From: Paracrocinitomix mangrovi
GTDB lineage: Bacteria > Bacteroidota > Bacteroidia > Flavobacteriales_D > Crocinitomicaceae
DNA length: 64,000 nucleotides
Direction: 5' to 3'
Assembly (NCBI RefSeq): GCF_019740355.2
Contig: NZ_CP091819.1
Span: 3,720,001-3,784,000 of the forward strand
Positions within the stretch are counted from its first letter, which is position 1. Each line of letters starts with the position of its first letter. The notes under the pieces were generated by a model. That model was given only the letters and a program-made list of their open reading frames with translations. It ran no database searches and was not told the origin of the DNA. Positions 5,369-19,722 of this stretch are shown here, one piece after another. The position numbers were made by a program, and so were the translations under genes.

Positions 5369-6289
5369 TTATTTATATGATTCAAAAATCATCATTCTAA
5401 AAGCCTGAGGAGACATGCCTTCGCTCTTTTTAAATTGACGGGTGAAATATGCCGGATTGTTAAAGCCAGTTCTACCGGCAACTTGTGAAATACTCAATTT
5501 GTGGTCGTTCAACAATCTCTTGGCAAACTTAATTCGCTCCTGAAGAATAAATGAAACCGGAGATTCCCCAATGGTGTCTTTAAACACTCTATGAAAATGA
5601 GAAGCACTCATGTAGGCTTTATCTGCCAATCCTTCTACAGTTAATTTATCAGATAAATTTTGCTTAATGTATCGCACAATGTAAGCGATTCTGTTATTGT
5701 TATATAAATCGCTAGACGCTCTTAAAATAGTTGATCTAGCTTCTGTTTGTAGTAATCTAACAATCAGTTCCTTTAACATGTAATCCAACAACATGTCTCT
5801 TGAATTGTGCTGGTTGATAAAGGTCATTGTAATGCGATTCATCAAATGTTGAATATCATTTTGTGCATGAACCATTCCAGGCTTTTTGGCAATTTCCCAA
5901 CGTTTAAAATCGTCATTTTCAATTCTGACTTTTTCATTGAAATTGTTGATTGTTTCTCGTATCAATGAGGGATCTATGCCTAGCGCAAGACATTGAGTTG
6001 GATTTTGAAATGAGGCTTCAGGGAAATCTATGATCATTTCTTGTCCTACAGGCATTACTAATGTCTCACCGGGAAAAAAGTTAAACTGATCCATATCTTG
6101 TAAATGCATTACTTTTTTACCGCTAAGCATGCTCACAATTACTGGATAGTCAAAAGTTAAATCAACCCTTTCTGCCACCTTGTAAGTTTCAAACATGTTT
6201 AATTCTGAAGCATCTGCTTGGAAGACACTTTGATTCTCAACAAGAGTTTGAACCCTACTTTCAATTATTTGCCTATTCAAATCGCTCAT
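5369..6289 (-). CDS. AraC-family transcriptional regulator
   Basis: 306 aa. The C-terminal ~105 residues contain the two helix-turn-helix motifs of AraC/XylS proteins (LTVEGLADKAYMSASHFHRV and ISQVAGRTGFNNPAYFTRQF, then KKSEGMSPQAFR). The N-terminal ~180 residues look like the AraC_N ligand-binding region (cupin-like; FFPGETLVMPVGQEM). It is divergent from the aldB-type dehydrogenase, with a 143-bp intergenic region holding two palindromes and a repeated AAACGAT, so it most likely controls that gene in response to an aldehyde or alcohol signal (inference). Confidence 0.88.
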   Translation of the reverse strand: MSDLNRQIIESRVQTLVENQSVFQADASELNMFETYKVAERVDLTFDYPVIVSMLSGKKVMHLQDMDQFNFFPGETLVMPVGQEMIIDFPEASFQNPTQCLALGIDPSLIRETINNFNEKVRIENDDFKRWEIAKKPGMVHAQNDIQHLMNRITMTFINQHNSRDMLLDYMLKELIVRLLQTEARSTILRASSDLYNNNRIAYIVRYIKQNLSDKLTVEGLADKAYMSASHFHRVFKDTIGESPVSFILQERIKFAKRLLNDHKLSISQVAGRTGFNNPAYFTRQFKKSEGMSPQAFRMMIFESYK

Positions 6290-6327
6290 AAAAGTTGATA
6301 CAAGTTACTCAAAATCATCAAATCCTT

Positions 6328-6398
6328 AAACGATTCTATCACAATGATAGGATAGTGCAAACGATCGGTAGATTAATGCAAAAGTTTGAGATTCAAAC
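6328..6398. promoter_or_regulatory. Candidate operator region between araC-type gene and aldB
   Basis: The divergent intergenic region contains a repeated AAACGAT (6328-6334 and 6359-6365, 31 bp apart, about three helical turns) and two perfect 6-3-6 palindromes: CTATCA-caa-TGATAG (6336-6350) and GTTTGA-gat-TCAAAC (6384-6398). Paired direct half-sites on one DNA face are usual for AraC-family proteins. The sites are seen; that the regulator binds them is inferred. Confidence 0.5.
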
Positions 6399-6432
6399 TG
6401 TCTAGCTTCACATAAATCAAAAAACATGTGAT

Positions 6433-7932
6433 ATGAGTTATACAAAACCGACATTTAATGATGTATATAATAACTTCATTAACGGAAAATTTACTCCACC
6501 CGTAAATGGTGAGTATTTTGAAAACAGATCGCCTGTGGACAATACTTTGATTGCAAAGTATCCAAGATCAACAAAAGAAGATGTTGATTTAGCAGTTGAA
6601 GCAGCTAATGCTGCAAAAGAAGCCTGGGGAAAAACTTCAGCCACACAAAGAGCGGCTTTACTAAATAAAGTAGCTGACATCATAGAAGAAAATCTAGAAG
6701 AATTCGCTTTAGTTGAAACATGTGACAACGGAAAAGCGATAAGAGAAACTTTAAATGCAGATGTACCTTTGTCAGTTGATCACTGGCGTTATTTTGCTGC
6801 GGCTATCCGAATGGAAGAGGGCTCTGCAACAGAGTTAGATGAAAACACGGTGTCTTTAATTATTAAAGAACCAATCGGTGTAGTTGGTCAAATTATTCCG
6901 TGGAACTTTCCTTTGTTGATGTTGTCCTGGAAATTACCCCCTGCTTTGGCATCAGGTAACTGTGTAATTTTAAAACCAGCTGAGCAAACGCCGTCTTCTG
7001 CTACCTTATTAATGGAGAAGATTGCTGATGTATTTCCTCCGGGTGTAGTAAATGTTGTTCATGGCTTTGGTCCTGAAGCCGGAAAACCACTGGCATCTCA
7101 CGACGGGATTGACAAAGTGGCTTTTACCGGGGAAACAACAACCGGGCAGTTAATTATGCAATATGCTTCTAAAAATCTGAATCCGGTAACAATGGAATTA
7201 GGAGGTAAGTCACCTAATATATTCTTTAATAGTGTAATGGATGAGGATGATGCATTCTTGGATAAAGCTATTGAGGGAGCTGTGTTGTTTGCATTTAACC
7301 AGGGTGAGGTTTGTACTTGTCCTTCAAGAATTTTGGTTCAAGAGGATATATATGATGCTTTCATGGAGAGAGTTGTTGCAAGAACTAAAGCAATTGTTCA
7401 AGGAAATCCTTATGATGTCAATACTCAAGTGGGTGCACAAGCTTCAAGTGATCAAAAAGAAAAGATTCTTTCTTATTTAGAAATTGGAAAAGAAGAAGGA
7501 GCAAAAGTGTTAGCAGGTGGAGCTGCTTGCAATTTGGATGGAGATTTTGCGAATGGATTTTACATTCAGCCTACAATTTTAGAAGGGCATAATAAAATGC
7601 GTGTGTTCCAGGAAGAGATTTTTGGACCTGTTGTTTGTGTTACCAAATTCAAAGATGAAGCAGAGGCTTTAGAAATTGCCAATGACACTTTGTATGGGTT
7701 AGGTGCAGGCGTTTGGACAAGAGATGCGCATCAACTATATCAAATTCCAAGAGAAATAAAAGCGGGTAGAGTATGGGTGAATTGTTATCATGCTTATCCA
7801 GCACATGCTCCTTTTGGAGGATATAAAAAATCAGGATTCGGAAGAGAAACACATGTGATGATGATGAACCATTATCGTCAAACAAAAAACATGTTGATCT
7901 CTTATGATAAGAACAAATTAGGTTTTTTCTAG
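6433..7932 (+). CDS. aldB: NAD(P)+-dependent acetaldehyde dehydrogenase, AldB/ExaC type
   Basis: Oxidises acetaldehyde and related short aldehydes to acids. 499 aa, the full family length. Motifs: catalytic Cys294 in GEVCTCPSR, the two-cysteine variant typical of AldB/ThcA/ExaC; general base Glu255 in [11 protein letters not shown]; the NAD-binding loop [19 protein letters not shown] near residue 155; and C-terminal [19 protein letters not shown]. The start ATG at 6433 fits family alignments. Neighbours support the call: a divergent AraC regulator and a downstream DUF779 gene, a pairing common for this subfamily. The acetate formed could feed the acyl-CoA synthetases encoded 8-12 kb downstream. 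Confidence 0.92.
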
Positions 7933-7959
7933 GATGATTTAGTTTATCCGGTGAGCAAG

Positions 7960-7994
7960 GAGGGGGAGTAGATTTCGGCATTAGGCTCCCTCTC
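7960..7994 (+). other. Stem-loop between aldB and DUF779 gene
   Basis: GAGGGGGAG (7960-7968) pairs with CTCCCTCTC (7986-7994) over 9 bp with one G-U, 17-nt loop, followed by only a weak T-rich stretch. It could be a partial terminator or an mRNA-processing hairpin lowering expression of the second gene. Confidence 0.5.
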
Positions 7995-8019
7995 ATTTTG
8001 TTTTAAAATCAATCATAAA

Positions 8020-8352
8020 ATGGAAAGACTAGCAATAACAGAAGAAGCAGCAAAAGCTGTTGAACAATTGAAAGAAAAACATGGTGATTTGATATTTCAT
8101 CAAAGTGGTGGTTGCTGTGACGGTTCTGCTCCCATGATTTTTGAAGAGGGCGAAATGTATATAGATGATAATGATGTTAAGCTTGGAGAGATTTGTGGTG
8201 TTCCATTTTACATGAGTAAAGATCAGTTTGAATACTGGAAACATACTCATCTAACAATAGATGTTACCGAAGGAAGAGGTGCCAGTTTTTCATTGGAGAT
8301 ACCTTTGGGAGTACGTTTTATTGTTAAATCTAGACTACTTACGGCGGAATGA
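8020..8352 (+). CDS. DUF779 protein, aldehyde-dehydrogenase partner
   Basis: 110 aa, full length for DUF779. The conserved core is visible: FHQSGGCCDGSAPMIF (vicinal cysteines), GVPFYMSKDQFEYWKHT and a C-terminal EIPLGVRFIVKSR. The Cys pair and acidic residues hint at metal or redox chemistry, but no function is established to my knowledge. It lies 87 bp downstream of the AldB-type dehydrogenase and ends before a strong terminator, so the two form a unit. A role in maturing or protecting the dehydrogenase is inference from gene neighbourhood. Confidence 0.88.
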   Translation: MERLAITEEAAKAVEQLKEKHGDLIFHQSGGCCDGSAPMIFEEGEMYIDDNDVKLGEICGVPFYMSKDQFEYWKHTHLTIDVTEGRGASFSLEIPLGVRFIVKSRLLTAE

Positions 8353-8376
8353 AAAAGCCGAGCTAAATAGAGGTAG

Positions 8377-8402
8377 GGGGATGCGCTTGCATCCCCTTTT
8401 TT
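8377..8402 (+). terminator. Rho-independent terminator after aldB-DUF779
   Basis: 8-bp perfect stem GGGGATGC / GCATCCCC with a GCTT loop, followed by six T. It cleanly separates the aldehyde dehydrogenase unit from the acetate locus. Confidence 0.9.
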
Positions 8403-8478: not shown

Positions 8479-8505
8479 TGCTAAATAGATATACATTTGC
8501 TAAAT
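8479..8505 (+). promoter_or_regulatory. Two TGCTAAAT sites and -7 element before the IS1-like gene
   Basis: TGCTAAAT occurs at 8479-8486 and 8498-8505, each followed after about 3 nt by TATA. The second overlaps TACATTTG (8492-8499), which fits the Bacteroidota -7 consensus TAnnTTTG. Two further copies in inverted orientation lie just downstream of the gene. Likely binding sites of the encoded DNA-binding protein, or transposon-end remnants. Confidence 0.5.
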
Positions 8506-8513
8506 TAGTATAT

Positions 8514-8933
8514 ATGAATGAAAAAGCATGTCCTAATTGTGGAAGTGAGCACTATATAAAAAGTGGTGTTGTCAACCATAGGCAAAGGTATAAGTGTAAA
8601 GATTGCAGCTATTTCTTTACTGTATTTAAGGATGGTAAGAAGATTGATGATTATTATGTCAATAAGGCGCTCCAGTTATATCTTGAAGGGCTTACTTACA
8701 GGGAAATTGAACGAATTCTAGGTGTTTCTCATGTCAGTGTAATGAATTGGGTAAAGAAGTATCGGGTTAAACGTCCGGAAAATACTAATTATCATCCTTC
8801 GTATCGCATCTTTAGTGCTACAGAATTATCTACTTACTTCAGTAATCCTGAAAACCTTAGAGGAGCAGGGAATATAGTGACTGAACTGGGAGATAAATTC
8901 ATGCTTATTAAATGGGAAAGATTTAGAGAATAA
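8514..8933 (+). CDS. Orphan IS1-InsA-like zinc-ribbon/HTH protein, probably a domesticated regulator
   Basis: 139 aa from the ATG (a GTG 36 bp upstream is in frame but lies in the repeat region). Residues 6-31 are a four-Cys zinc ribbon, C-x2-C...C-x2-C, with QRYKCKDC, as in the InsA half of IS1 transposases. Residues ~50-85 form a helix-turn-helix (LTYREIERILGVSHVSVMNW). The remaining ~55 residues are unassigned. No InsB/DDE catalytic domain follows in any frame, so it cannot be a working transposase. It is flanked by repeated TGCTAAA(T/C) sites and placed at the head of the porin-symporter genes, so a role as transcription factor for acetate uptake is proposed (inference). Alternative: decaying IS remnant. 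Confidence 0.72.
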   Translation: MNEKACPNCGSEHYIKSGVVNHRQRYKCKDCSYFFTVFKDGKKIDDYYVNKALQLYLEGLTYREIERILGVSHVSVMNWVKKYRVKRPENTNYHPSYRIFSATELSTYFSNPENLRGAGNIVTELGDKFMLIKWERFRE

Positions 8934-8940
8934 CTATATT

Positions 8941-8969
8941 ATTTAGCAAATAAATATAGCTGTTTAGCA
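8941..8969 (-). promoter_or_regulatory. Two inverted copies of the TGCTAAA motif before the porin gene
   Basis: ATTTAGCA (8941-8948) and GTTTAGCA (8962-8969) are reverse complements of TGCTAAAT/TGCTAAAC, 21 bp apart, in the 106-bp gap between the IS1-like gene and the porin start. With the two upstream copies they bracket the gene in inverted orientation. Confidence 0.5.
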
Positions 8970-9039
8970 TTCATCCGTAGTTTGTTTGAATTTAGTTGGG
9001 CCGACAACCAGCTTTTTAGTAATTGAAATTCAAATAACT

Positions 9040-10287
9040 ATGAAGTTTATGTTTAAACATTTTTCTACATATTTAGCAAGTATTGTAATACTTACAGTAT
9101 CTGCTAATAATGTGAAAGCGCAAACCTCCCCCGATATATACAAAGGAGGTTTAAAAGTAAATTTAAATGATGATGGATCTAAGTACTTTAGATTGATCTC
9201 CTGGGCGCAAATTCAGGCCATCTATGCTGATGGGGCTGGTTCGGCCAATTCAAATGTTACCCTTAATTTGAGAAGAGCAAGGGTGCTGATGTACTCTCAA
9301 ATCAGTAAAAAATTCTTAATTCTAACTCATTTCGGTCTTAACAGTCTAAACAGAAACACATTGAGTCCAACCGGAACAGGTCCAGGATCACAGTTGTTTT
9401 TTCATGATGTTTGGGGGCAATATTCAATAGGTGAGAATCATGCAGTTGGAGCTGGTTTACATTATTTCAATGGGATTTCCAGGTTAAATAATCAATCAAC
9501 CTTGAACATGATGACATTGGATAATAACAGACAATCGTGGGCTACAATTGGATTATCTGATCAATTCGCAAGACACTTAGGGGTGTTCGGAAAAGGATCC
9601 ATTGGTAAATTGCAATATCGTTTGGCTATCAATGATGCATTAACTAATACACTGGATACAAGAGATCCTGTATATGGAGGTTCTGCTGTTTATGCCGGAA
9701 AAAAACTAATTGGTTCTAGAACTGCTGGGTTCACTTATGCCGGTTACTTTGAGTATCAATTTCTGGATAAAGAGTCAAACTTCTTGCCTTATAAGGTTGG
9801 AACCTATGTTGGTAAGAAGAAAGTGTTAAATCTAGGTGCCGGTTTCTTCTTGCATCCTAACGGATCAGTAATAATGACTGATACATTGGGAACACTTGCG
9901 GGTGAGAATGTTGGAATATTTGCCGGAGATGTATTCTTTGAGTATCCAATTGGATCCAATAATTCGGCAATCAGTGCATATGCTACTTTTCAATACAATA
10001 ATTACGGGAGAGATTATTTGTATAGCGCATACGGAACAGGAAACATGATTTATGGACATTTGGGATATGTAGTTCCCGGAAAAGCAGAAAAACCTCGCTT
10101 ACAACCTTATGTATCCTATGCCTTAAACTCATATGATGCATCACCTGATAATAGAACTGTGCTTGGTGTAGGAACCAACTTATATCTCACAGGTCATCAT
10201 TCAAAACTAACGTTGGAGTATCAAAGGCAACAATTTGGCACAACTGTGGGCAATGCTATGACACTTCAAGCTATGATTTACCTATAA
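9040..10287 (+). CDS. Outer-membrane porin of the acetate locus
   Basis: 415 aa from ATG 9040, chosen because a signal peptide (FSTYLASIVILTVSANNVKAQ) follows; a TTG 54 bp upstream would place hydrophilic residues before it. The mature protein is rich in alternating aromatic/polar beta-strands and ends in LTLEYQRQQF...TLQAMIYL, typical of a barrel closing strand. It resembles phosphate-selective-porin (OprO/P)-like proteins. Only 11 bp separate it from the symporter small subunit, so it probably admits short organic acids through the outer membrane (inference). Confidence 0.78.
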   Translation: MKFMFKHFSTYLASIVILTVSANNVKAQTSPDIYKGGLKVNLNDDGSKYFRLISWAQIQAIYADGAGSANSNVTLNLRRARVLMYSQISKKFLILTHFGLNSLNRNTLSPTGTGPGSQLFFHDVWGQYSIGENHAVGAGLHYFNGISRLNNQSTLNMMTLDNNRQSWATIGLSDQFARHLGVFGKGSIGKLQYRLAINDALTNTLDTRDPVYGGSAVYAGKKLIGSRTAGFTYAGYFEYQFLDKESNFLPYKVGTYVGKKKVLNLGAGFFLHPNGSVIMTDTLGTLAGENVGIFAGDVFFEYPIGSNNSAISAYATFQYNNYGRDYLYSAYGTGNMIYGHLGYVVPGKAEKPRLQPYVSYALNSYDASPDNRTVLGVGTNLYLTGHHSKLTLEYQRQQFGTTVGNAMTLQAMIYL

Positions 10288-10298
10288 AAACACTTAAT

Positions 10299-10562
10299 AT
10301 GTCTGAAGATAAAACAAAAGCAAAAGCATATTGGAAAGAGAATTTAAGATACTTAACAATATTGCTAGTTATCTGGTTCCTGGTTTCATGTGGAGCCGGT
10401 ATCCTATTCAAAGATTACTTAAACCAATTCAGTTTGGGCGGATTTAAACTTGGTTTTTGGTTTGCTCAGCAGGGATCAATCTACGTGTTTGTCATACTCA
10501 TTTTTGTCTATGTGTATTTGATGAACAAACTAGATAAAAAGTACGGTTACGAAGAAGAATAA
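10299..10562 (+). CDS. DUF4212 small subunit of sodium/solute symporter
   Basis: 87 aa with two transmembrane helices (TILLVIWFLVSCGAGILF and GSIYVFVILIFVYVYLMN) and charged ends. This is the DUF4212 family that always precedes SSS symporters of the VC_2705 type; the pair probably forms one transport complex in the inner membrane. The large subunit follows after 27 bp. Confidence 0.9.
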   Translation: MSEDKTKAKAYWKENLRYLTILLVIWFLVSCGAGILFKDYLNQFSLGGFKLGFWFAQQGSIYVFVILIFVYVYLMNKLDKKYGYEEE

Positions 10563-10589: not shown

Positions 10590-12368
10590 ATGTCAGTTGA
10601 ATTATGGACTTGGATATTGGTAGGCGTAACATTCGCGCTATATTTTGGAATAGCCATTTGGGCTAGAGCGGGATCTACCAAAGAATTTTATGTTGCAGGT
10701 GGGGGCGTTTCTCCACTTTCAAATGGTATGGCTACGGCTGCAGATTGGATGAGTGCAGCTTCGTTTATTTCAATGGCCGGAATTATTTCATTCAGTGGTT
10801 ATGATGGCTCTGTTTACTTAATGGGTTGGACAGGTGGATACGTCCTCTTGGCCTTGCTGTTAGCTCCATATTTAAGAAAGTTTGGAAAGTTTACAGTGCC
10901 TGATTTTATAGGGGATAGATATTACTCTAATACGGCAAGAACAGTAGCAGTAATATGTGCCTTGATAGTTTCATTTACTTACGTTGCAGGTCAAATGAGA
11001 GGTGTTGGAATCGTGTTTTCACAATTCCTCCAGGTAGATATTGTGGTCGGTGTCATCATAGGTATGGCGGTTGTATTGGTGTTCGCCTTCCTGGGTGGTA
11101 TGAAAGGAATTACCTATACACAGGTTGTACAGTATTGTGTATTGATTTTTGCTTTCATGGTGCCGGCCATTTTTATTTCTTTTCAAATGACTGGAAATCC
11201 AATTCCTCAAATGGGAATGGGAGGCAGTACCTCAGATGGCGTCTATATACTGGATAAGTTAGATGCACTTCACACTGATCTTGGATTTAAAGAATATACC
11301 AGTGGAACAAAATCTACATGGGATGTATTTGCAATCACAGTTGCCTTAATGGTTGGAACGGCAGGATTACCGCATGTAATTGTTAGGTTCTTTACCGTAC
11401 CAAAAGTAAGAGACGCTAGAAAATCTGCAGGTTTGGCTTTGTTGTTTATTGCTATTCTTTATACAACAGCTCCGGCAGTAGCGGTTTTTGCCAGAACTAA
11501 TATGATTGAAACAGTAAGTGAAAAATCATATTCTTCAATGCCTAACTGGTTTAAAAACTGGGAAGAAACAGGATTGATCGCCTGGTCTGATAAAAATGGT
11601 GATGGTAAAATCCAATATGTAGCAGGTAATGCACTTGATGGTAAAAAACCTGAATTTTTAGAAGGTAGAGGAGCGTTTGGTGAAAGATTAGTAGCCAATC
11701 CTAATATGGCCGAAATGAATGAGCTTTATGTAGATAGAGACATCATGGTATTAGCCAATCCTGAAATTGCCGAATTACCAAACTGGGTAATCGCATTGGT
11801 TGCTGCAGGTGGATTAGCGGCAGCACTTTCAACAGCAGCAGGATTACTACTTGTAATCTCTACTTCTGTTTCACATGACTTGATTAAAAAACAAATTAAA
11901 CCAAATATTTCTGACAAAGGTGAGCTAATGGCAGCACGAATCAGCATATTAGTTGCAGTAATAGTGGCTGGATTGTTCGGCATTTATCCTCCCGGATTCG
12001 TTGCTGCCGTTGTCGCCCTTGCTTTTGGATTAGCCGCGGCGTCCTTTTTCCCGGCTATCATTCTCGGAATCTTTGATAAGAGAATGAACAAGCAAGGAGC
12101 AATTACCGGAATGGTTGTGGGTACTTCCCTAATGCTGTTCTACATGATCAGATTTAAAACAGGTTTGGTTGGAGTAATGGATCCTTTACCTGCCGAAGAT
12201 TGGTGGTTTGGAACATCACCAGAAGGTTTTGGTACCGTTGCAATGGTTGTCAATTTTGTCGTCTCCTTTGTGGTGTCAAGATTGACTGCAGCTCCACCAA
12301 AAGAGGTGCAAGAAATTGTTGAGGATATTAGAATCCCTTCAGGAGCAGGAGAAGCAGCTCAACATTAA
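10590..12368 (+). CDS. Sodium:solute symporter, VC_2705/ActP-like (probable acetate permease)
   Basis: 592 aa SSS (SLC5) permease with about 13 hydrophobic segments. SSS landmarks: the N-terminal GAGSTKEFYVAGG-like stretch, ATAADWMSAASFISMAGIIS in TM1-2, GTAGLPHVIVRFFTVP mid-protein, and GLAAALSTAAGLLLVIS. Residues ~300-390 form a hydrophilic insertion with a Ca-binding-like loop (SDKNGDGKIQY), characteristic of the VC_2705 subfamily. Pairing with a DUF4212 subunit and proximity to two acyl-CoA synthetases points to acetate or propionate uptake. A strong terminator follows. Confidence 0.88.
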   Translation: MSVELWTWILVGVTFALYFGIAIWARAGSTKEFYVAGGGVSPLSNGMATAADWMSAASFISMAGIISFSGYDGSVYLMGWTGGYVLLALLLAPYLRKFGKFTVPDFIGDRYYSNTARTVAVICALIVSFTYVAGQMRGVGIVFSQFLQVDIVVGVIIGMAVVLVFAFLGGMKGITYTQVVQYCVLIFAFMVPAIFISFQMTGNPIPQMGMGGSTSDGVYILDKLDALHTDLGFKEYTSGTKSTWDVFAITVALMVGTAGLPHVIVRFFTVPKVRDARKSAGLALLFIAILYTTAPAVAVFARTNMIETVSEKSYSSMPNWFKNWEETGLIAWSDKNGDGKIQYVAGNALDGKKPEFLEGRGAFGERLVANPNMAEMNELYVDRDIMVLANPEIAELPNWVIALVAAGGLAAALSTAAGLLLVISTSVSHDLIKKQIKPNISDKGELMAARISILVAVIVAGLFGIYPPGFVAAVVALAFGLAAASFFPAIILGIFDKRMNKQGAITGMVVGTSLMLFYMIRFKTGLVGVMDPLPAEDWWFGTSPEGFGTVAMVVNFVVSFVVSRLTAAPPKEVQEIVEDIRIPSGAGEAAQH

Positions 12369-12432: not shown

Positions 12433-12627
12433 ATGAAAAAAAGACATGAACAAAAATTAGTAGTACTGGCTTTGGCCCTTTTTATTGGGTTAAATGTGCC
12501 GTTCATTCTAATTTTTGATTTTCAAGGTCATGTTTTAGGAATTCCGGTACTTTATTTATACATCTTTTTTGTGTGGTTAGTGTCCATACTCATTGCTTAT
12601 CGAATTTTATCTAGATTTTATGAGTAG
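12433..12627 (+). CDS. Small membrane protein preceding SLC5-kinase (CbrX-like position)
   Basis: 64 aa, two hydrophobic helices (LVVLALALFIGLNVPFILIF and LYLYIFFVWLVSILIAYRIL) with a basic N-terminus. Its last 8 bp overlap the ATG of the histidine kinase, implying translational coupling. A small hydrophobic protein in the same position, CbrX, precedes CbrA kinases in pseudomonads; relationship by sequence is not demonstrated. Possible role: folding or membrane insertion of the kinase transporter domain. Confidence 0.7.
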   Translation: MKKRHEQKLVVLALALFIGLNVPFILIFDFQGHVLGIPVLYLYIFFVWLVSILIAYRILSRFYE

Positions 12628-15334
12628 TGTTGGATTGATCATAATTATTGTGCTGTATCTGGCACTGATTTTCTTTATAGCTTTTTGGGCTGAGAAAAGA
12701 AAAAACAGTAGATGGGTCAATAATCCATATATCTATACATTGTCTTTAGCAGTATACTGTACGGCTTGGACCTACTACGGGAGTGTTGGTAAAGCAGCAA
12801 CTTCGGGAATTGAATTCTTGACAATTTATTTGGGTCCAATTATAGCATTGCCTTTATGGATAGTGCTGATGCGAAAGATCATCCGAATTTCAAAGAATCA
12901 CAATGTGTCATCAATTGCGGATTTTATTTCATTGAGATATGGTAAAAACAGAACATTGGGTGCAGTTGTAACAATTGTAGCCTTATTGGCAACAATACCA
13001 TACATCTCATTACAGCTAAAAGCTATTTCAGATACATTCCACATCATGACTGCCGGAAGTATTGAAAGTGGCAATAACATCCTTTACGATTCTACCTTTT
13101 ACATTGCATTAATACTTGCAGTTTTTGCAACATTTTTTGGTACACAAGCTTCTGATGCAACAGAAAAGCATAGAGGATTAGTGGCTTCTGTGGCATTTGA
13201 GTCAATTTTAAAACTCGTATTCTTTTTAATTATTGGAGTGTATGTTTCATTTGTGATGTTTGATAGTCCTGCCGATATTTATAATCAGATTTCGAAAACA
13301 GAGAATTTTGAACAGTTAACTTCTTTTGGAGGTGTAGACAATGCTTTTAATTGGATGTTTTTAATCGTATTGTCATTCATGGCTATCTTTTTACTACCAA
13401 GACAATTTCAGGTTGCCGTGGTAGAAAATTCAAGGGAAAAACATCTTAAAAAGGCTATTTGGTTGTTCCCGCTTTACCTACTGCTGTTTAACGTTTTTGT
13501 AATCTATATTGCCTGGGGAGGGAACCTTATTTATGGAGATGCATCTAATGCAGAATATTATTCATTGTTGATTCCTTTAGAAAGTGGAAATTCATTCCTG
13601 GCTCTTTTAGTCTTTTTAGGTGGATTTTCAGCCGTGATTTCAATGGTAGTGGTTTCAACCTTGGCCTTGAGCACCATGGTGAGTAATAATCTTATCATTC
13701 CGTATGGATTCTTAGGAAAATTCATTCAAGGTCAAACAGATAGTAATACCAAGTCAATTAAAAATATCAGACGAATTTCAATCTTCTTGATAATTGCGTT
13801 GGCGTATTTGTTTTTTGTGAGCTTTTCAGTTCAAATTCCATTAATCTCTATAGGCTTGATGGCTTTTGTAATTGTTGCCCAATTGGCTCCTTCTTTCTTT
13901 ATTGGGCTATATTGGAACAGAGGATCTGCCAAAGCTTCAATTATTGGGATTATTATAGGCTTGTTAATCACGGTTTACACTTTTGTTTTACCTTTTGTCA
14001 TTGAAGCATTTACTGGTGATAATTCATTTACGTTATATGGCCCTTTTGGAATTGAAATTTTAAAACCTCAGGCACTTTTTGGTCTTGATTTTATGGGACC
14101 AACAGCACATGCTTTTTTCTGGAGTTTAACTTTTAATACCTTGACCTATTTTATTTTGTCTTTAACGGCAAAAGGAAATTATAGGGAACGAAATTTTGCT
14201 GAAATCTTTATCGACCCAAAAAACTATACAAATCTACAGGACAATGCACTTGTTTGGAAAGGTGAGGCTTATGTTGAGGATATCAAAAATGTATTGAAAA
14301 AATTTCTGGGTGAAGCTCAAACAAATAGAGCATTGGATCTATTTTTTAAAAAGTATGACTTGCCAGCAGATACGCAAATGGCAGATGCCAGATTAATTAA
14401 TTTTTCTGAAAAGTTGTTGGCCGGTAGTATTGGTGGTGCCTCAGCTCAAATTCTAATTTCTTCTGTTGTGAAAGAAGAAGAAATCAGCTTAATAGAAGTG
14501 CTTAAAATTCTAGAGGAATCTAAAAAGACAATTGATAGCAATAAGATATTAAAAGACAAGTCTGATGAATTACACAATTTGGCAGAGCAATTAAAAGCTG
14601 CCAATTCAGAGTTATTGGTCAAAGACAAACAAAAAGACGAGTTTTTAGATACAGTAGCTCATGAGTTAAAAACCCCAATAACCGGAATCAAAGCAAGTAC
14701 AGAGTTATTGATTGAAGATATTAATGAAATGCCTGAGGAGTTGAAAACTCAATTTCTTATCAATATTCTGAATGATTCAGATAGACTATCAAGGTTGATT
14801 AACAACATTCTGGATTATGAAAAACTATCTACAGGTAGAGAGGAGTTAGACTTAGAATACCAAAATATTAAAACAACCATTAATAAGGTTTATCAAAGTC
14901 TGCAAACTATTGCAACTAATGTAAATTGTGAAATCAAATTAAAAAGCGAAGCTGATTTCAAATTGTATTTTGATGAGGACAGAATTACTCAAGTATTGAC
15001 CAATCTATTGTCAAACGCAATTAAGTATGCAGATAAAGAAAATGGGATCATAGAAGTGGATTACCGTCAGGAGTTTGATAAACTCTATGTATCAGTTGCA
15101 GATAACGGAAGTGGTGTTCCTGATGAAGACGTAAAATACATTTTTGATAAATTTTTCCAATCGCATCATCAAAACACTATTAAGCCTAGTGGTAGTGGAT
15201 TTGGATTAGCAATCTGCAAGCAAATTATAGAAAAACACAACGGATCAATTTGGTACGAACCAAGCGCTTCCGGAGGTGCCAAAATAACATTTAATATACC
15301 TGTTACTAAACAAAGCCAAGAAACAAATGAGTAA
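12620..15334 (+). CDS. SLC5-domain sensor histidine kinase, CrbS/CbrA type
   Basis: 904 aa from ATG 12620; an upstream TTG is less likely because ATG gives the coupled start. Residues 1 to ~510 are a complete sodium/solute-symporter (SLC5) domain with about 13 helices. Then come a linker resembling the STAC region, a short coiled coil (ILKDKSDELHNLAEQLKAAN) and the kinase core: H-box FLDTVAHELKTPITG with phospho-acceptor His681, N-box VLTNLLSNAIKYAD, G1 DNGSGVPDEDVKYIFDKFF, G2 GSGFGLAICKQIIEKH. CrbS-type kinases sense acetate or related solutes and control acs/actP. It overlaps the response-regulator gene by 8 bp. Confidence 0.9.
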   Translation: MSSVGLIIIIVLYLALIFFIAFWAEKRKNSRWVNNPYIYTLSLAVYCTAWTYYGSVGKAATSGIEFLTIYLGPIIALPLWIVLMRKIIRISKNHNVSSIADFISLRYGKNRTLGAVVTIVALLATIPYISLQLKAISDTFHIMTAGSIESGNNILYDSTFYIALILAVFATFFGTQASDATEKHRGLVASVAFESILKLVFFLIIGVYVSFVMFDSPADIYNQISKTENFEQLTSFGGVDNAFNWMFLIVLSFMAIFLLPRQFQVAVVENSREKHLKKAIWLFPLYLLLFNVFVIYIAWGGNLIYGDASNAEYYSLLIPLESGNSFLALLVFLGGFSAVISMVVVSTLALSTMVSNNLIIPYGFLGKFIQGQTDSNTKSIKNIRRISIFLIIALAYLFFVSFSVQIPLISIGLMAFVIVAQLAPSFFIGLYWNRGSAKASIIGIIIGLLITVYTFVLPFVIEAFTGDNSFTLYGPFGIEILKPQALFGLDFMGPTAHAFFWSLTFNTLTYFILSLTAKGNYRERNFAEIFIDPKNYTNLQDNALVWKGEAYVEDIKNVLKKFLGEAQTNRALDLFFKKYDLPADTQMADARLINFSEKLLAGSIGGASAQILISSVVKEEEISLIEVLKILEESKKTIDSNKILKDKSDELHNLAEQLKAANSELLVKDKQKDEFLDTVAHELKTPITGIKASTELLIEDINEMPEELKTQFLINILNDSDRLSRLINNILDYEKLSTGREELDLEYQNIKTTINKVYQSLQTIATNVNCEIKLKSEADFKLYFDEDRITQVLTNLLSNAIKYADKENGIIEVDYRQEFDKLYVSVADNGSGVPDEDVKYIFDKFFQSHHQNTIKPSGSGFGLAICKQIIEKHNGSIWYEPSASGGAKITFNIPVTKQSQETNE

Positions 15335-15689
15335 AAAAATTGTGATAGTTGATGATGAGCCGAACATTGTTATGTCACTCGAATATGCCTTTAAGAAAAA
15401 AGGTCATCAGGTTTTTATTGCCAGAGATGGTTCTGAAGCCATAGAGATAATTAAGAAGGAATTGCCGGATGCTGTGGTGTTAGATGTTATGATGCCAAAA
15501 GTAGACGGTTTTAACACGCTCAAACAAATTAAGAACTCACCTGAATTAAAAAACTGTAGAGTAGTGTTCCTTTCTGCTAAAAACAAAGAAAGTGATATTC
15601 AAAAAGGATTGGATTTAGGAGCTGATAAGTACCTAACAAAGCCTTTTTCAGTGAAGAAAGTAATAACAGAAGTTGAAGAGCTTCTTTAA
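15327..15689 (+). CDS. Receiver-only response regulator (CheY-like)
   Basis: 120 aa, a single receiver domain: acidic pocket VDDEPN, phospho-acceptor Asp53 in VVLDVMMPKVDGF, Ser/Thr in VVFLSAK and Lys in KYLTKPFS. There is no HTH or enzymatic output domain, unlike CrbR or CbrB partners of similar kinases. The 8-bp overlap with the kinase gene makes it the likely cognate partner. The output must therefore run through another protein. Confidence 0.92.
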   Translation: MSKKIVIVDDEPNIVMSLEYAFKKKGHQVFIARDGSEAIEIIKKELPDAVVLDVMMPKVDGFNTLKQIKNSPELKNCRVVFLSAKNKESDIQKGLDLGADKYLTKPFSVKKVITEVEELL

Positions 15690-15920: not shown

Positions 15921-17819
15921 GTGTATAAAAGTGAGTATAAATTAAGCATTGAGCAACCGGAGGAATTCTGGGGACGTGCAGCTAACGAAATAGGCTGGTA
16001 TAAAAAGCCAACAAATATTTTAAACAGAACATCTAATAGGTGGTTTGAAGATGGTGTGTTAAACCTTTCTTATTTATGTGTTGATAAGCATGTAATGGAC
16101 GGATTTGGAGAACAGATAGCAATAATATATGATTCACCAGTTTCGAATCAAAAACTGCATATCAGCTATAATGAACTTCAAAATGAAGTGAGCAAGTTGG
16201 CCGGTGGATTACATAAGTTAGGAGTTGAAAAAGGAGATACAGTAATTATTTATATGCCCATGATTCCGCAAGCTCTTTACGCTATGTTGGCTTGTGTTAG
16301 AATTGGAGCAATACACTCTGTTGTATTTGGTGGCTTTGCACCCCACGAATTGGCAATTAGAATTGACGACAGCAAACCAAAAGCTATTATTTGTGCAAGC
16401 AATGGAATTGAGGTTGATAAAATTATTCCATACAAACCTTTTGTTGATGAAGCCATTAATCTGGCAGATCATAAACCTGAAAAAGTGATCATTTACGATA
16501 GAAAGCAAAATGTTCCTTTTGAGAAGAAAGCTTATGATGTAGATTATACCAATTTAGTTGATTCATCTGATCCGGTAAATCCGGTTCCTGTAGAAGCTGA
16601 TCATCCTTCATATATTTTATATACTTCTGGAACAACTGGTAAACCAAAAGGTATTGTTAGAGATACGGGTGGATACGCAACAGCATTAAAATACACCATG
16701 AAAAATGTCTATGGTGTTGAGCAAGGAGACGTTTATTGGGCGGCAAGTGACGTGGGTTGGGTTGTTGGACATAGTTACATTGTATATGGTCCTTTAATCA
16801 ATAGAAACACTACCATATTGTTTGAAGGTAAACCTATTAAAACTCCTGATGCTTCAACTTTTTGGAGAGTAATTAGTGAACACAATGTACGTGTAATGTT
16901 TACTGCTCCAACTGCCATCAGAGCGATCAGAAAAGAGGATTCAGAAGGATCGTTTATTAAAAAGTTTGATTTATCTAATTTGAAATACTTGTTTTTGGCT
17001 GGTGAGCGTTGTGATGTAGCAACCTTAAGATGGGCTGAAAATCAATTAAAAGTACCTGTAATAGATCATTGGTGGCAAACAGAATCTGGCTGGCCAATGA
17101 TTGCAAATATGGCTGGGCTAGAGCTTTTTCCTGTTAAGCCTGGCTCAGCCACTTTTCCTGTTTGCGGATATGATGTGCAGATTTTGGGCGAAAATGGTGT
17201 TGTGCAAGGAGCTAATACAGAAGGATATGTAGCGGTTAAACTTCCTTTACCTCCAGGAAATTTATTGAGTTTGTGGAATGATGATGAAAGATTCCAAAAT
17301 GGATATTTAAAGAAATTCCCGGGCTATTATTTTTCAGGTGATGGTGGGTATAAAGATGCAGATGGATATGTATTTATTACCGGAAGAGTAGATGATATCA
17401 TCAATGTTGCAGGACATAGGTTGTCAACAGCTGAAATGGAAGAGGTAATCAGTATGCATCCTTTGGTGGCTGAATGTGCTGTTTTTGGTGTCCATTGTGA
17501 GTTAAAAGGACAAAAGCCTCTAGGGTTAGTGGTTGTTAAGCCTGGAATTAAAATAGATTTTAAAGATCTTCATAGTGATTTGGTACAAGCTGTGCGAAAG
17601 GAAATTGGACCTGTTGCTTCTTTTAAAGATGTAGTGGTAGTAAACAGATTACCAAAAACCAGATCAGGAAAAATCCTAAGAAAATTGTTACGTGATATAG
17701 CGGACAACAAAGAATATAAAATTCCTTCAACTATAGACGATATAGCTATTGTCAGTGAAATAGAAGAAGCGTACATAGAAAACAATATTGGTATTCATCA
17801 AAAAATGAATTATGAGTAA
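15921..17819 (+). CDS. Acetyl/propionyl-CoA synthetase, PrpE/ACSS3-like
   Basis: 632 aa AMP-forming acyl-CoA synthetase that activates a short-chain acid to acyl-CoA via an acyl-adenylate. Start is GTG 15921, 4 bp after the preceding stop. Motifs: P-loop YILYTSGTTGKPKGIV, core IDHWWQTESGWPM, FSGDGGYKDADGY, FITGRVDDIINVAGHRLS, and the C-terminal LPKTRSGKILRK with the acetylation-sensitive Lys. The motif HWWQTESGWP and the FGGFAPHEL segment are nearer PrpE/ACSS3 than canonical Acs, so propionate may be preferred. It overlaps the next gene by 8 bp. Confidence 0.85.
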   Translation: MYKSEYKLSIEQPEEFWGRAANEIGWYKKPTNILNRTSNRWFEDGVLNLSYLCVDKHVMDGFGEQIAIIYDSPVSNQKLHISYNELQNEVSKLAGGLHKLGVEKGDTVIIYMPMIPQALYAMLACVRIGAIHSVVFGGFAPHELAIRIDDSKPKAIICASNGIEVDKIIPYKPFVDEAINLADHKPEKVIIYDRKQNVPFEKKAYDVDYTNLVDSSDPVNPVPVEADHPSYILYTSGTTGKPKGIVRDTGGYATALKYTMKNVYGVEQGDVYWAASDVGWVVGHSYIVYGPLINRNTTILFEGKPIKTPDASTFWRVISEHNVRVMFTAPTAIRAIRKEDSEGSFIKKFDLSNLKYLFLAGERCDVATLRWAENQLKVPVIDHWWQTESGWPMIANMAGLELFPVKPGSATFPVCGYDVQILGENGVVQGANTEGYVAVKLPLPPGNLLSLWNDDERFQNGYLKKFPGYYFSGDGGYKDADGYVFITGRVDDIINVAGHRLSTAEMEEVISMHPLVAECAVFGVHCELKGQKPLGLVVVKPGIKIDFKDLHSDLVQAVRKEIGPVASFKDVVVVNRLPKTRSGKILRKLLRDIADNKEYKIPSTIDDIAIVSEIEEAYIENNIGIHQKMNYE

Positions 17820-19722
17820 TTATCACATTAAAAATTTAGAAGAGTATTTTAAAGTGTACAGAAAGTCTGTTCACAAACCTGAAGAATTTTGGGAAGAAAT
17901 AGCGGAAGAACATTTTGTTTGGCGTCAACGCTGGGACAATGTGATGAGTTTTGACTTTGAAAAACCAGAAATCAAATGGTTTGAAAACGCAAAGTTGAAT
18001 ATAACTGAAAACTGCATTGATAGGCACTTGCGTACAAGAGGAGATAAGACTGCTATATTATTTGAGCCAAATGATCCAAATGAAGAGGCGCAACACATCA
18101 CCTATAAAAGATTGGCAGAACGCGTCAATCAAATGGCAAATGTATTAAAGGATAATGGCGTGCAAAAGGGAGACAGAGTATGTATTTACTTACCTATGAT
18201 CCCTGAGTTGGCTTTTGCAGTTTTAGCCTGTGCAAGAATTGGAGCTATTCACTCGGTTGTTTTTGCAGGATTTTCATCATCTGCCTTGGCAACGAGAATT
18301 AATGACAGTGATTGTAAAATTGTGTTGACATCAGATGGATCTTATAGAGGTTCAAAATCAATAGATTTAAAAGGAATTGTAGATGAGGCATTAAAAACTT
18401 GCCCTAGTGTTAAAAGTGTATTGGTTGCTAAGCGAATCAACTCTGATATTCACATGGAAGAAGGAAGAGATAAATGGCTACAACCTTTGTTAGATGCAGC
18501 ATCAAAAGATTGCGAACCGGAAATAATGGATGCAGAAGATCCTTTGTTCATCTTGTATACATCAGGATCTACCGGAAAACCAAAAGGAATGGTTCATACA
18601 ACGGCAGGTTATATGGTTTATACTGCCTACACTTTTAAAAACGTCTTCCAGTATAGAGAGTCTGATATTTATTGGTGTACGGCAGATATTGGATGGATTA
18701 CCGGTCATAGTTATATCATATATGGTCCATTGGCAAATGGAGCTACAACTGTAATGTTTGAAGGTGTTCCGTCTTATCCTGATTTTGGAAGATTCTGGGA
18801 GATTGTAGAGAAACACAAAGTAACTCAGTTTTATACTGCTCCAACTGCTATTAGGGCGTTAGCTAAAGAAGATTTGGCTTATGTTGAAAAATATGATTTA
18901 TCAAGTTTAAAGGTATTAGGGTCAGTAGGGGAGCCAATTAATGAAGAAGCCTGGCACTGGTATGATGACAATGTAGGTAAAAAGAAAAGCCCAATTGTGG
19001 ATACCTGGTGGCAAACAGAAACCGGAGGGATTTTGATTTCTCCAATTCCTTATGTTACACCAACCATTCCAACATTTGCAACGCTTCCTTTACCAGGAAT
19101 TCAACCGGCCTTAATGGATGAAAACGGTGAAGAAATAAAAGGAAATTTGGTAGAGGGTAGATTGTGTATCAAGTTTCCATGGCCTTCAATTGCCAGAACC
19201 ATTTGGGGTAATCATGAAAGGTACAGAGATACGTATTTCTCAGCCTATAAAGGCAAGTATTTTACGGGTGATGGTGCAAGAAGAGATGCTGTAGGATATT
19301 ACAGAATTACGGGTAGGGTAGATGATGTGATCATTGTTTCAGGTCATAACCTTGGAACTGCGCCGATTGAAGATGCCATTAATGAGCACAATGCTGTAGC
19401 AGAATCTGCAATAGTTGGTTTTCCACATGATATTAAAGGAAATGCTTTGTATGGATTCATTACCCTGAAGGAAACTGGTGAATCGCGTAATCACGATAAT
19501 TTAAGAAAGGAAATTAATCAATTGATTACAGAGCAAATAGGGCCAATTGCCAAATTGGATAAGATTCAGTTTACAGTTGGATTGCCTAAAACTAGATCAG
19601 GAAAAATTATGCGCCGTATCCTTCGAAAGATAGCGTGTAATGAAGCGGAAAGTCTAGGTGATATTTCAACCTTATTAAACCCTGAAGTTGTTCAGCAGAT
19701 TTTAGAAGAAAGAATCGCATAA
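17812..19722 (+). CDS. acs: Acetyl-CoA synthetase
   Basis: 636 aa, close to the ~650 aa of canonical Acs. It makes acetyl-CoA from acetate, ATP and CoA. Motifs: FILYTSGSTGKPKGMVHT, VDTWWQTETGGILISPIP (Acs-type substrate pocket Trp), YFTGDGARRDAVGYYRITGR, DDVIIVSGHNLGTAPIE and the regulatory Lys in GLPKTRSGKIMRR. The ATG overlaps the stop of the first synthetase, so the two are translationally coupled. It completes an uptake-sensing-activation cluster for C2/C3 acids. Confidence 0.93.
   Translation: MSNYHIKNLEEYFKVYRKSVHKPEEFWEEIAEEHFVWRQRWDNVMSFDFEKPEIKWFENAKLNITENCIDRHLRTRGDKTAILFEPNDPNEEAQHITYKRLAERVNQMANVLKDNGVQKGDRVCIYLPMIPELAFAVLACARIGAIHSVVFAGFSSSALATRINDSDCKIVLTSDGSYRGSKSIDLKGIVDEALKTCPSVKSVLVAKRINSDIHMEEGRDKWLQPLLDAASKDCEPEIMDAEDPLFILYTSGSTGKPKGMVHTTAGYMVYTAYTFKNVFQYRESDIYWCTADIGWITGHSYIIYGPLANGATTVMFEGVPSYPDFGRFWEIVEKHKVTQFYTAPTAIRALAKEDLAYVEKYDLSSLKVLGSVGEPINEEAWHWYDDNVGKKKSPIVDTWWQTETGGILISPIPYVTPTIPTFATLPLPGIQPALMDENGEEIKGNLVEGRLCIKFPWPSIARTIWGNHERYRDTYFSAYKGKYFTGDGARRDAVGYYRITGRVDDVIIVSGHNLGTAPIEDAINEHNAVAESAIVGFPHDIKGNALYGFITLKETGESRNHDNLRKEINQLITEQIGPIAKLDKIQFTVGLPKTRSGKIMRRILRKIACNEAESLGDISTLLNPEVVQQILEERIA

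Follow-up and report, generated by a model that had tools for sequence, protein, structure and literature searches.

The window, that is, the whole 64,000-nucleotide stretch of Paracrocinitomix mangrovi DNA analysed here, carries the gene cluster listed in Table 1. A short ORF for a protein resembling the InsA part of IS1 transposases lies at its head. Genes for a porin-like protein, a transporter, an SSS-domain histidine kinase (SSS-kinase), a lone receiver protein (REC) and two ligases follow on the same strand. This position between a terminator and the porin-symporter genes stands as originally predicted, with the hairpin upstream and the porin-like, DUF4212 and SSS genes downstream. The prediction was also right that the response regulator of the locus has no DNA-binding domain, REC being a single receiver domain. 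The tandem site at 8479-8512, which is conserved, and the inverted counterpart at 8934-8969 had gone unremarked.

Directly upstream of these features (5369-8352) lie genes for an AraC-type regulator, an ExaC-like acetaldehyde dehydrogenase and a DUF779 protein. The same trio precedes the InsA-like gene in 13 of the best 80 loci (out of at least 555 relatives), which suggests an aldehyde-to-acetate branch. The acs genes adjoin the SSS-kinase and REC genes in the window. From the AcsA match, the VC_2705-family symporter and the CrbS-like kinase, the substrate appears to be acetate; it may instead be propionate or another carboxylate. Another terminator-like hairpin (8994-9013) lies between the downstream sites and the porin start and is possibly an attenuator. 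A sigma-70 promoter scan of the window was uninformative for Bacteroidota.

Table 1. Features of the InsA-like locus and the downstream cluster, in window coordinates
Feature	Position	Strand	Basis or remark
Terminator-like hairpin, 3′ of the ALDH-DUF779 genes	8375-8398	+	Pattern match only
Candidate operator site 1, TGCTAAATAGATATA	8479-8493	+	15-bp matrix
-7-like box TACATTTG, between the operator sites	8492-8499	+	Sequence; promoter role inferred
Candidate operator site 2, TGCTAAATTAGTATA	8498-8512	+	Ends one base before ATG
IS1 InsA-derived DNA-binding protein (predicted)	8514-8933	+	ORF, 139 aa plus stop; domain matches
Inverted downstream site TGCTAAATAATATAG	8934-8948	-	Immediately 3′ of the stop codon
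Second inverted downstream site TGCTAAACAGCTATA	8955-8969	-	15-bp matrix
Porin-like outer-membrane protein	9040-10287	+	Weak ExtI-type match, 60 bits (cut-off 150); ORF listed from 8986
DUF4212 small subunit	10299-10562	+	PF13937, 1.4e-34
SSS symporter, VC_2705 family	10590-12368	+	TIGR03648, 862 bits
SSS-domain histidine kinase, CrbS-like layout	12593-15334	+	SSF, HisKA, HATPase_c
Lone receiver-domain response regulator (REC), without output domain	15327-15689	+	Single receiver domain
Propionate/acetate--CoA ligase-like protein	15921-17819	+	PRK10524, 718 bits (below cut-off); PRK00174, 672 bits (above cut-off)
Acetate--CoA ligase AcsA	17812-19722	+	TIGR02188, 960 bits

The InsA-like protein and its IS1 relatives

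The 139-residue protein (P0001) matches the NCBIfam model of IS1 transposases, NF033558, with E 1.6e-21 and 77 bits, the model cut-off being 100. The match joins residues 6-117 to positions 1-115 of the 199 in the model. Thus, the DDE half is absent from the protein. No InsB-like ORF was seen 3′ of the gene in the list of ORFs of at least 80 aa. Pfam found HTH_23 (3.6e-6) and HTH_28 (7.4e-6), both at residues 51-88, and a weak IS1595-type zinc ribbon, whose cysteines (C6, C9, C28 and C31) are invariant in the alignments of 33 and 22 homologues. The InsA-type four-cysteine ribbon with an HTH and the lack of an InsB/DDE partner, both claimed in the original prediction, are borne out by these matches.

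The protein can be divided into a zinc ribbon (about residues 1-38), an HTH (46-82) and a C-terminal strand-helix-strand-strand part (93-136). An AlphaFold2 model made from the 33-row alignment (mean pLDDT 80, pTM 0.55) has the zinc ribbon, a three-helix HTH, a strand at 93-100, a helix at 102-110, and strands at 120-125 and 128-136. A fold search against the PDB gave no match at E ≤ 0.001, and the VIA-align rows fall mainly on the HTH and the zinc ribbon, with a best Z of 6.8. The modelled HTH resembles GcrA (Z 6.8; rmsd 2.5 over 47 residues) as well as many further HTH proteins and is, as modelled, a common fold. KCTD5 gave a Z of 5.1 on residues 91-139; a fold assignment for the C-terminal part was dropped, since the structural matches cover mainly the other two parts. 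There is a conserved C-terminal block, TELGDKFMLIKWERF, and F137 is invariant in both alignments of homologues. In the genomes G430 and G561, the C-terminal ends read WEGPSGKKS and WNKQRPK, and F137 is gone in both.

By hhalign, the family of the 139-residue protein was matched with five Bacteroidota IS1 transposases with a probability of 97.8 over columns 6-112. Four IS1 transposases from a same-family sample score 131-148 bits over the whole NF033558 model. The closest true IS1 element found is a 750-bp element at 9535-10284 of the locus L132, in the genome G311, whose match (115 bits) had first been taken as an orthologue. In a tree of 41 N-terminal halves (91 columns, midpoint-rooted, with long-branch warnings elsewhere), 18 regulators form one group with support 99/99, and the regulators, the L132 IS1 and three solo genes are grouped with support 99/93.

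The ends of the L132 IS1 are 21-nt inverted repeats (GGTATTGCTAATTTAGTATAG and CTATACTTTTTTAGCAATACC, 86% complementary). An 8-bp target duplication, GATAGTAT, can be read from the sequence on both sides, and a GGT tip is present as well; by eye, neither was seen at the regulator locus. A 0-frame ORF (model 1-114) and a -1-frame ORF (model 110-199) meet at an A8 run (9915-9922). That the L132 ORF is an IS1 relic was rejected, as this is the ordinary two-frame IS1 layout. The candidate operator site is found in the inner part of both L132 terminal repeats with scores of 19.4 and 17.8; in the background of 2,489,323 positions, 6 reach 19 and 8 reach 16. L132 is the only IS1 element scored that carries the site. 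Nothing above 1.5 was found upstream of the other Bacteroidota IS1 elements, neither in L025, L026, L027, L029 and L030 nor in L239-L242, L244, L245 and L247; the IS1 loci L235-L238, L243, L246 and L248 gave no ORF and lie outside this comparison.

Over 130 columns (residues 4-133), P0001 shares 42% identity with the L132 0-frame product. For 17 of the 18 regulators, the tail aligns with a better score to the 0-frame tail of L132 than to its -1-frame tail; L139 fits the other frame better. This tail homology is weak, with z values of 0.8-5.4 over the 18 regulators and at least 2.5 in 16 of them. Since the tails mostly match the 0 frame, the regulator family is likely the 0-frame InsA product, tail included. 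Among 13 solo tails, ten fit better in the 0 frame and three (L208, L224 and L232) in the other. Taken together, these alignments and the tree show that the InsA-like gene originated from the InsA portion of an element of the IS1 type, without InsB.

Conserved placement and candidate operator sites

The protein has one match at E ≤ 1 in its own genome of 4,365,762 bases (4.37 Mb). At E ≤ 1e-3, at least 555 relatives were found, IS1 transposases included, and the best 80 were kept; close relatives are therefore over-represented among these loci, which belong mostly to Flavobacteriia genera. The window genes were placed by tblastn in the best 80 and in further loci. A set of 121 loci consists of matches above 50% identity, leaving out L132 (an IS1) and the loci below L031. 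L129 and L130 duplicate L037 and L064; they were dropped only for a count of 119 distinct loci and are still included in the figures for 121 loci, 109 loci, porin/MFS gaps, the SSSHK, ACS1 and ACS2 regions, and 106 REC genes.

In the 121 loci, the next same-strand gene within 700 bp encodes a porin (103 loci), an MFS transporter (10), a ligase (1) or the SSS-kinase (1), and six have no query gene there. A porin or MFS transporter thus follows the InsA-like gene directly in 113. For 110 loci, at least 7.5 kb of downstream sequence was available. Within 10 kb, the SSS-kinase is found in 104 of them, REC in 105, an acyl-CoA ligase in 106 and a porin in 102, while the transporter is of the SSS type in 76, of the MFS type in 32 and neither in 2. 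The genome G072 is an exception to the single copy and has two. Its second orthologue (L127, 1397-1810) lies directly before the SSSHK-RR-ACS2 genes, with no porin or transporter between.

The dN/dS ratio w is 0.009-0.053 in six of ten close pairs, those computable with dN above 0; of the remaining pairs, one has no amino-acid change and three are saturated at silent sites. These values and the genome search show that the InsA-like gene is a single-copy gene under strong purifying selection. Only the IS1-like N-terminal half is present, as might be expected of a recently degraded, functionless IS1 remnant. This reading is next to impossible, since the conservation already refutes it: w is low in the six computed pairs, and the neighbours are conserved over the 121 loci. 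A plain IS1 insertion or remnant was likewise excluded by the single copy, w below 0.06 where computed, and the conserved place. The gene has the marks of a domesticated regulator (single copy, purifying selection, conserved host neighbourhood, loss of the catalytic part), and with one copy and a fixed neighbourhood it lacks those of a mobile IS1 element. Domestication, as originally proposed, is strongly supported by the IS1 origin, the single copy and the conserved placement: the genome has no near-identical second copy, and the homologues are not scattered, given the 113 loci with a porin or MFS gene next.

The gene is preceded by a 34-bp tandem block (8479-8512), in which TGCTAAATTnnTATA occurs twice at a 19-bp pitch just 5′ of the start codon. 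The sequence TACATTTG between the sites fits TAnnTTTG, the Bacteroidota -7 box. A 15-bp matrix was built from the upstream sequence of the gene. Because it was trained on the loci where the sites were counted, the independent tests come from three sources: shuffled sequences as controls, DUF4212 loci that lack the gene, and the IS1 ends. A same-strand pair at exactly 19 bp was found in 107 of the 121 loci (105 of the 119 distinct loci) and in none of the Markov-1 controls; the script missed it in 14 of the 119, in some through the start-codon cut. Single forward sites occur in 117 of the 121 loci, against 5.6 in controls. In 17 DUF4212 loci without the gene, the pair was never found (0/17), and single sites lie before DUF4212 in two, L158 (17.7) and L159 (11.4). 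A scan of the genome that contains the window for TGCTAAATNNNTATA, with up to one mismatch, gave 63 places, against 36 for the reversed control; the sole pair at the 19-bp pitch is the one upstream of the InsA-like gene.

Downstream, 49 of 103 porin gaps contain an opposite-strand site above the threshold, compared with 1.8 in the control, and 0 of 10 MFS gaps do. The aligned downstream consensus has two TATA-type boxes, inverted and weaker than those upstream; the two downstream copies in the window are both good. The region before SSSHK has no site (0/108 loci). Before the ligase genes ACS1 (n=68) and ACS2 (n=102), only opposite-strand pairs were found, in 2 and 4 loci, which would be expected for ligase genes divergent from the insA-like gene. 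The ORF is flanked by copies, in inverted orientation, of the inner part of the IS1 repeat, with no GGT tip or duplication seen by eye. The comparison with the L132 ends shows that the gene sits between inverted versions of a site that is likewise the inner part of an IS1 terminal repeat.

Could the tandem block be only a strong promoter or RNA leader, and not an operator of the InsA-like protein? In 106 of 109 loci, there is a -7-like box between the sites (TAnnTTTG or TAnnTTTA, with the exact TAnnTTTG in 12), and in 70 of 109 a single base separates the second site from the ATG. However, the block recurs as the inner part of an IS1 inverted repeat, an inverted copy follows the stop codon, the site precedes the solo genes L208 and L224, and the pitch is near two turns; a promoter or leader role alone is thus unlikely. 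Since the IS1 promoter is described as overlapping the left inverted repeat, IRL (PMC12428005), the promoter and operator roles are compatible.

I consider it probable that the InsA-like gene is a domesticated IS1 insA with the end sites as its operator, serving as an output beside the two-component system. IS1 InsA is described as binding the inverted repeats, repressing the promoter in IRL and competing at both ends (PMC12428005). The InsA-like protein would bind the tandem site over its own promoter and repress itself, as IS1 InsA does at IRL, and the inverted downstream sites would let it control the porin-transporter-kinase-ligase unit. Sites over the promoter, the gene, and inverted sites make up the layout of an IS1 without insB, from which autorepression and control of the porin and transporter would be expected. 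Autoregulation at the tandem site is likely on the strength of the sequences.

Co-occurrence with the sensor kinase

The genes were searched for in 346 genomes of the same class, at least 95% complete and chosen independently of the query; the kinase query was the N-terminal 578 aa of the SSS-kinase. The InsA-like protein was found in 34 genomes, the SSS-kinase in 33 and DUF4212 in 34. The InsA-like gene and the kinase are shared in 31, with three genomes having the gene only and two the kinase only (Fisher p 2e-38, relatedness ignored, and with G311 entered as having the gene though L132 is really an IS1). In comparison, the InsA-like gene and DUF4212 are shared in 10 (Fisher p 6e-4, relatedness ignored). 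The 31 genomes span 16 families, related genomes being non-independent. Thus, the DUF4212 transporter is a weak partner (10 shared of 34 and 34) and the kinase a better one. Of the originally predicted placement by porin/DUF4212/SSS genes, the neighbouring porin (or MFS) gene holds, while the presence of the InsA-like gene follows that of the sensor kinase more closely than that of the DUF4212/SSS transporter.

In G383, G428 and G378, the gene and the kinase are both present on different contigs, the kinase match in G378 being partial and with a stop. The three genomes with the gene and no kinase, G311 (IS1), G430 and G561, have the three lowest scores; G430 retains the gene, the MFS transporter and the ligase. 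The kinase was also not found in the genomes of L065 and L108 (MAGs of unstated completeness), which have the InsA-like gene. In all, six genomes, G137 and G372 among them, gave no match in this search, with the same query that detects the kinase in the 346-genome set. Of 150 genomes in a same-family sample, 24 have the InsA-like protein at E < 1e-40; all 9 genomes with DUF4212 above the cut-off have it.

The converse case is found in G351 and G445, which have an SSS-kinase, a lone REC and a symporter. They have no orthologue of the InsA-like protein (best E 0.03 and 0.43), and the operator-type site is absent from their loci. Thus, REC can do without the InsA-like protein there. The 17 control loci were taken from the 24 DUF4212 genomes without the gene, G351 being added separately. 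No SSS-kinase with a cognate REC lies within about 10 kb in 16 of the 17; L165 (G445) has both, and L160 has only a 36% REC fragment. Among 106 REC genes within 500 bp of the kinase (L064 and L130 being one record), 105 encode 106-145 aa and one encodes 199 aa with the receiver end at the C-terminus. At these lengths, none of the 106 has space for an output domain. The original proposal that the InsA-like protein may supply the missing transcriptional output gains strong comparative support from the 31 genomes that share the gene and the kinase, with G351 and G445, which have the kinase and a lone REC but not the gene, as exceptions.

In the proposed mechanism, the SSS-kinase would sense a carboxylate (acetate) and then phosphorylate the lone receiver protein. 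The receiver would switch the InsA-like protein via the C-terminal block TELGDKFMLIKWERF, and the two together would act as a split response regulator. I infer that REC acting on the InsA-like protein is the best use of the co-occurrence, though contact between the two proteins is less sure than autoregulation. More tentatively, and perhaps not quite evenly balanced, a split response regulator may have arisen from a transposon: the site-insA-inverted site unit would have been captured whole as the DNA-binding half for the lone receiver in Bacteroidota acetate/carboxylate sensing, with solo InsA captured repeatedly at other operon heads.

Alternatively, the InsA-like protein may regulate the cluster alone, through autorepression and the porin promoter and perhaps by sensing zinc or a metabolite, with no contact with the kinase or REC; the co-occurrence would then come from the shared operon. 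The gene adjoins the porin or transporter, not the kinase or REC, in 113 of 121 loci, and the gene and the kinase-REC pair are each retained without the other, in G430 and in G351 and G445, respectively. However, the gene tracks the kinase far better than DUF4212, even where they are unlinked (G383, G428 and G378), and 16 of the 17 DUF4212 loci without the gene are also without the kinase and REC. The loss of the otherwise invariant F137 in G430 and G561, which have no kinase, is a hint only in the same direction. Regulation by the InsA-like protein alone is conceivable but somewhat doubtful.

A domesticated IS silencer, which binds IS1 ends and suppresses incoming IS1, may also be considered, the position in the acetate cluster being an old chance insertion. 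IS1 InsA is described as occupying both inverted repeats and blocking transposition (PMC12428005), and the candidate site matches a real IS1 end (L132). Nevertheless, a silencer would not be expected to accompany one sensor kinase through 31 genomes from 16 families, with the transporter around the gene swapped, which makes this highly improbable.

Solo InsA-like genes and known systems

InsA-like genes without the cluster exist elsewhere in Bacteroidota (L206, L208, L224 and the G319 set). Like the regulator, they are stand-alone genes for 126-149 aa with the IS1 N-terminal half. Unlike the regulator, they adjoin a peptidase-ABC exporter, large proteins, or a kinase/regulator-like pair, and their tree branches are separate. 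In 13 solo genes examined, the site lies about 40 bases upstream in L208 (17.3) and L224 (13.8), and a weaker one lies at -106 in L234 (11.9). At L250 (5214-5630) and L251 (5769-6173), a solo gene heads a peptidase-domain ABC exporter (domain search for L250) with a HlyD-like gene next by eye, and an operator-like site of 17.3 and 13.8 bits, respectively, lies about 40 bases upstream. At L249 (6093-6503), in G298, a solo gene has, by eye, a response regulator-like gene and a kinase-like gene as neighbours; G298 has DUF4212 and no orthologue of the window protein, and L249 has no operator-like site. G319 has 11 matches to solo genes (L252, L254, L256, L258 and further paralogues among L220 and L226-L234). 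In the four G319 loci read, the solo gene lies directly upstream of a gene for a large protein (at least about 1,600 aa, truncated by the end of the locus) that carries GPxxPEF[SD]xFESV close to its N-terminus. The L252 large protein has no NCBIfam match at 1e-20.

If the proposed reading is true, the locus is a clear bacterial case in which a host has taken over both the repressor of a mobile element and its terminal repeats, as regulator and operator, and a related IS1 element survives to compare them with. It would also suggest, in a form open to test, how two-component systems with a lone receiver reach DNA in Bacteroidota, and further regulators derived from IS1 would be expected as a class in the phylum. 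In the open-licence PMC literature, no report was found of a captured IS1 InsA whose operator comes from its own end sequences and which replaces the DNA-binding domain of a response regulator.

The regulator shares the zinc ribbon and HTH with IS1 InsA (NF033558), and the related L132 element has the same site in its ends. Unlike IS1, the regulator has no InsB/DDE part, no -1-frame partner and no GGT seen beside the sites, and it is a single-copy gene in a fixed place with a doubled site at a 19-bp pitch. The window also resembles CrbS/CrbR (MxtR/ErdR) as described, in which an SSS-domain histidine kinase lies beside acetate-type symporter and acetyl-CoA synthetase genes. CrbR is described as a LuxR-family activator with its own inverted-repeat motif (PMC5715377). 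In contrast, the receiver in the window has no LuxR-type or other output domain, and a separate IS1-derived protein is linked to it.

Domesticated transposon proteins are already known. TldR proteins are derived from TnpB. They are described as transposon-derived RNA-guided regulators (PMC13418256), and the InsA-like protein is likewise a transposon-derived protein predicted to be a regulator. Unlike TldR, it comes from a different transposon protein and is not of the RNA-guided kind, and its operator also looks derived from the ends of the element.
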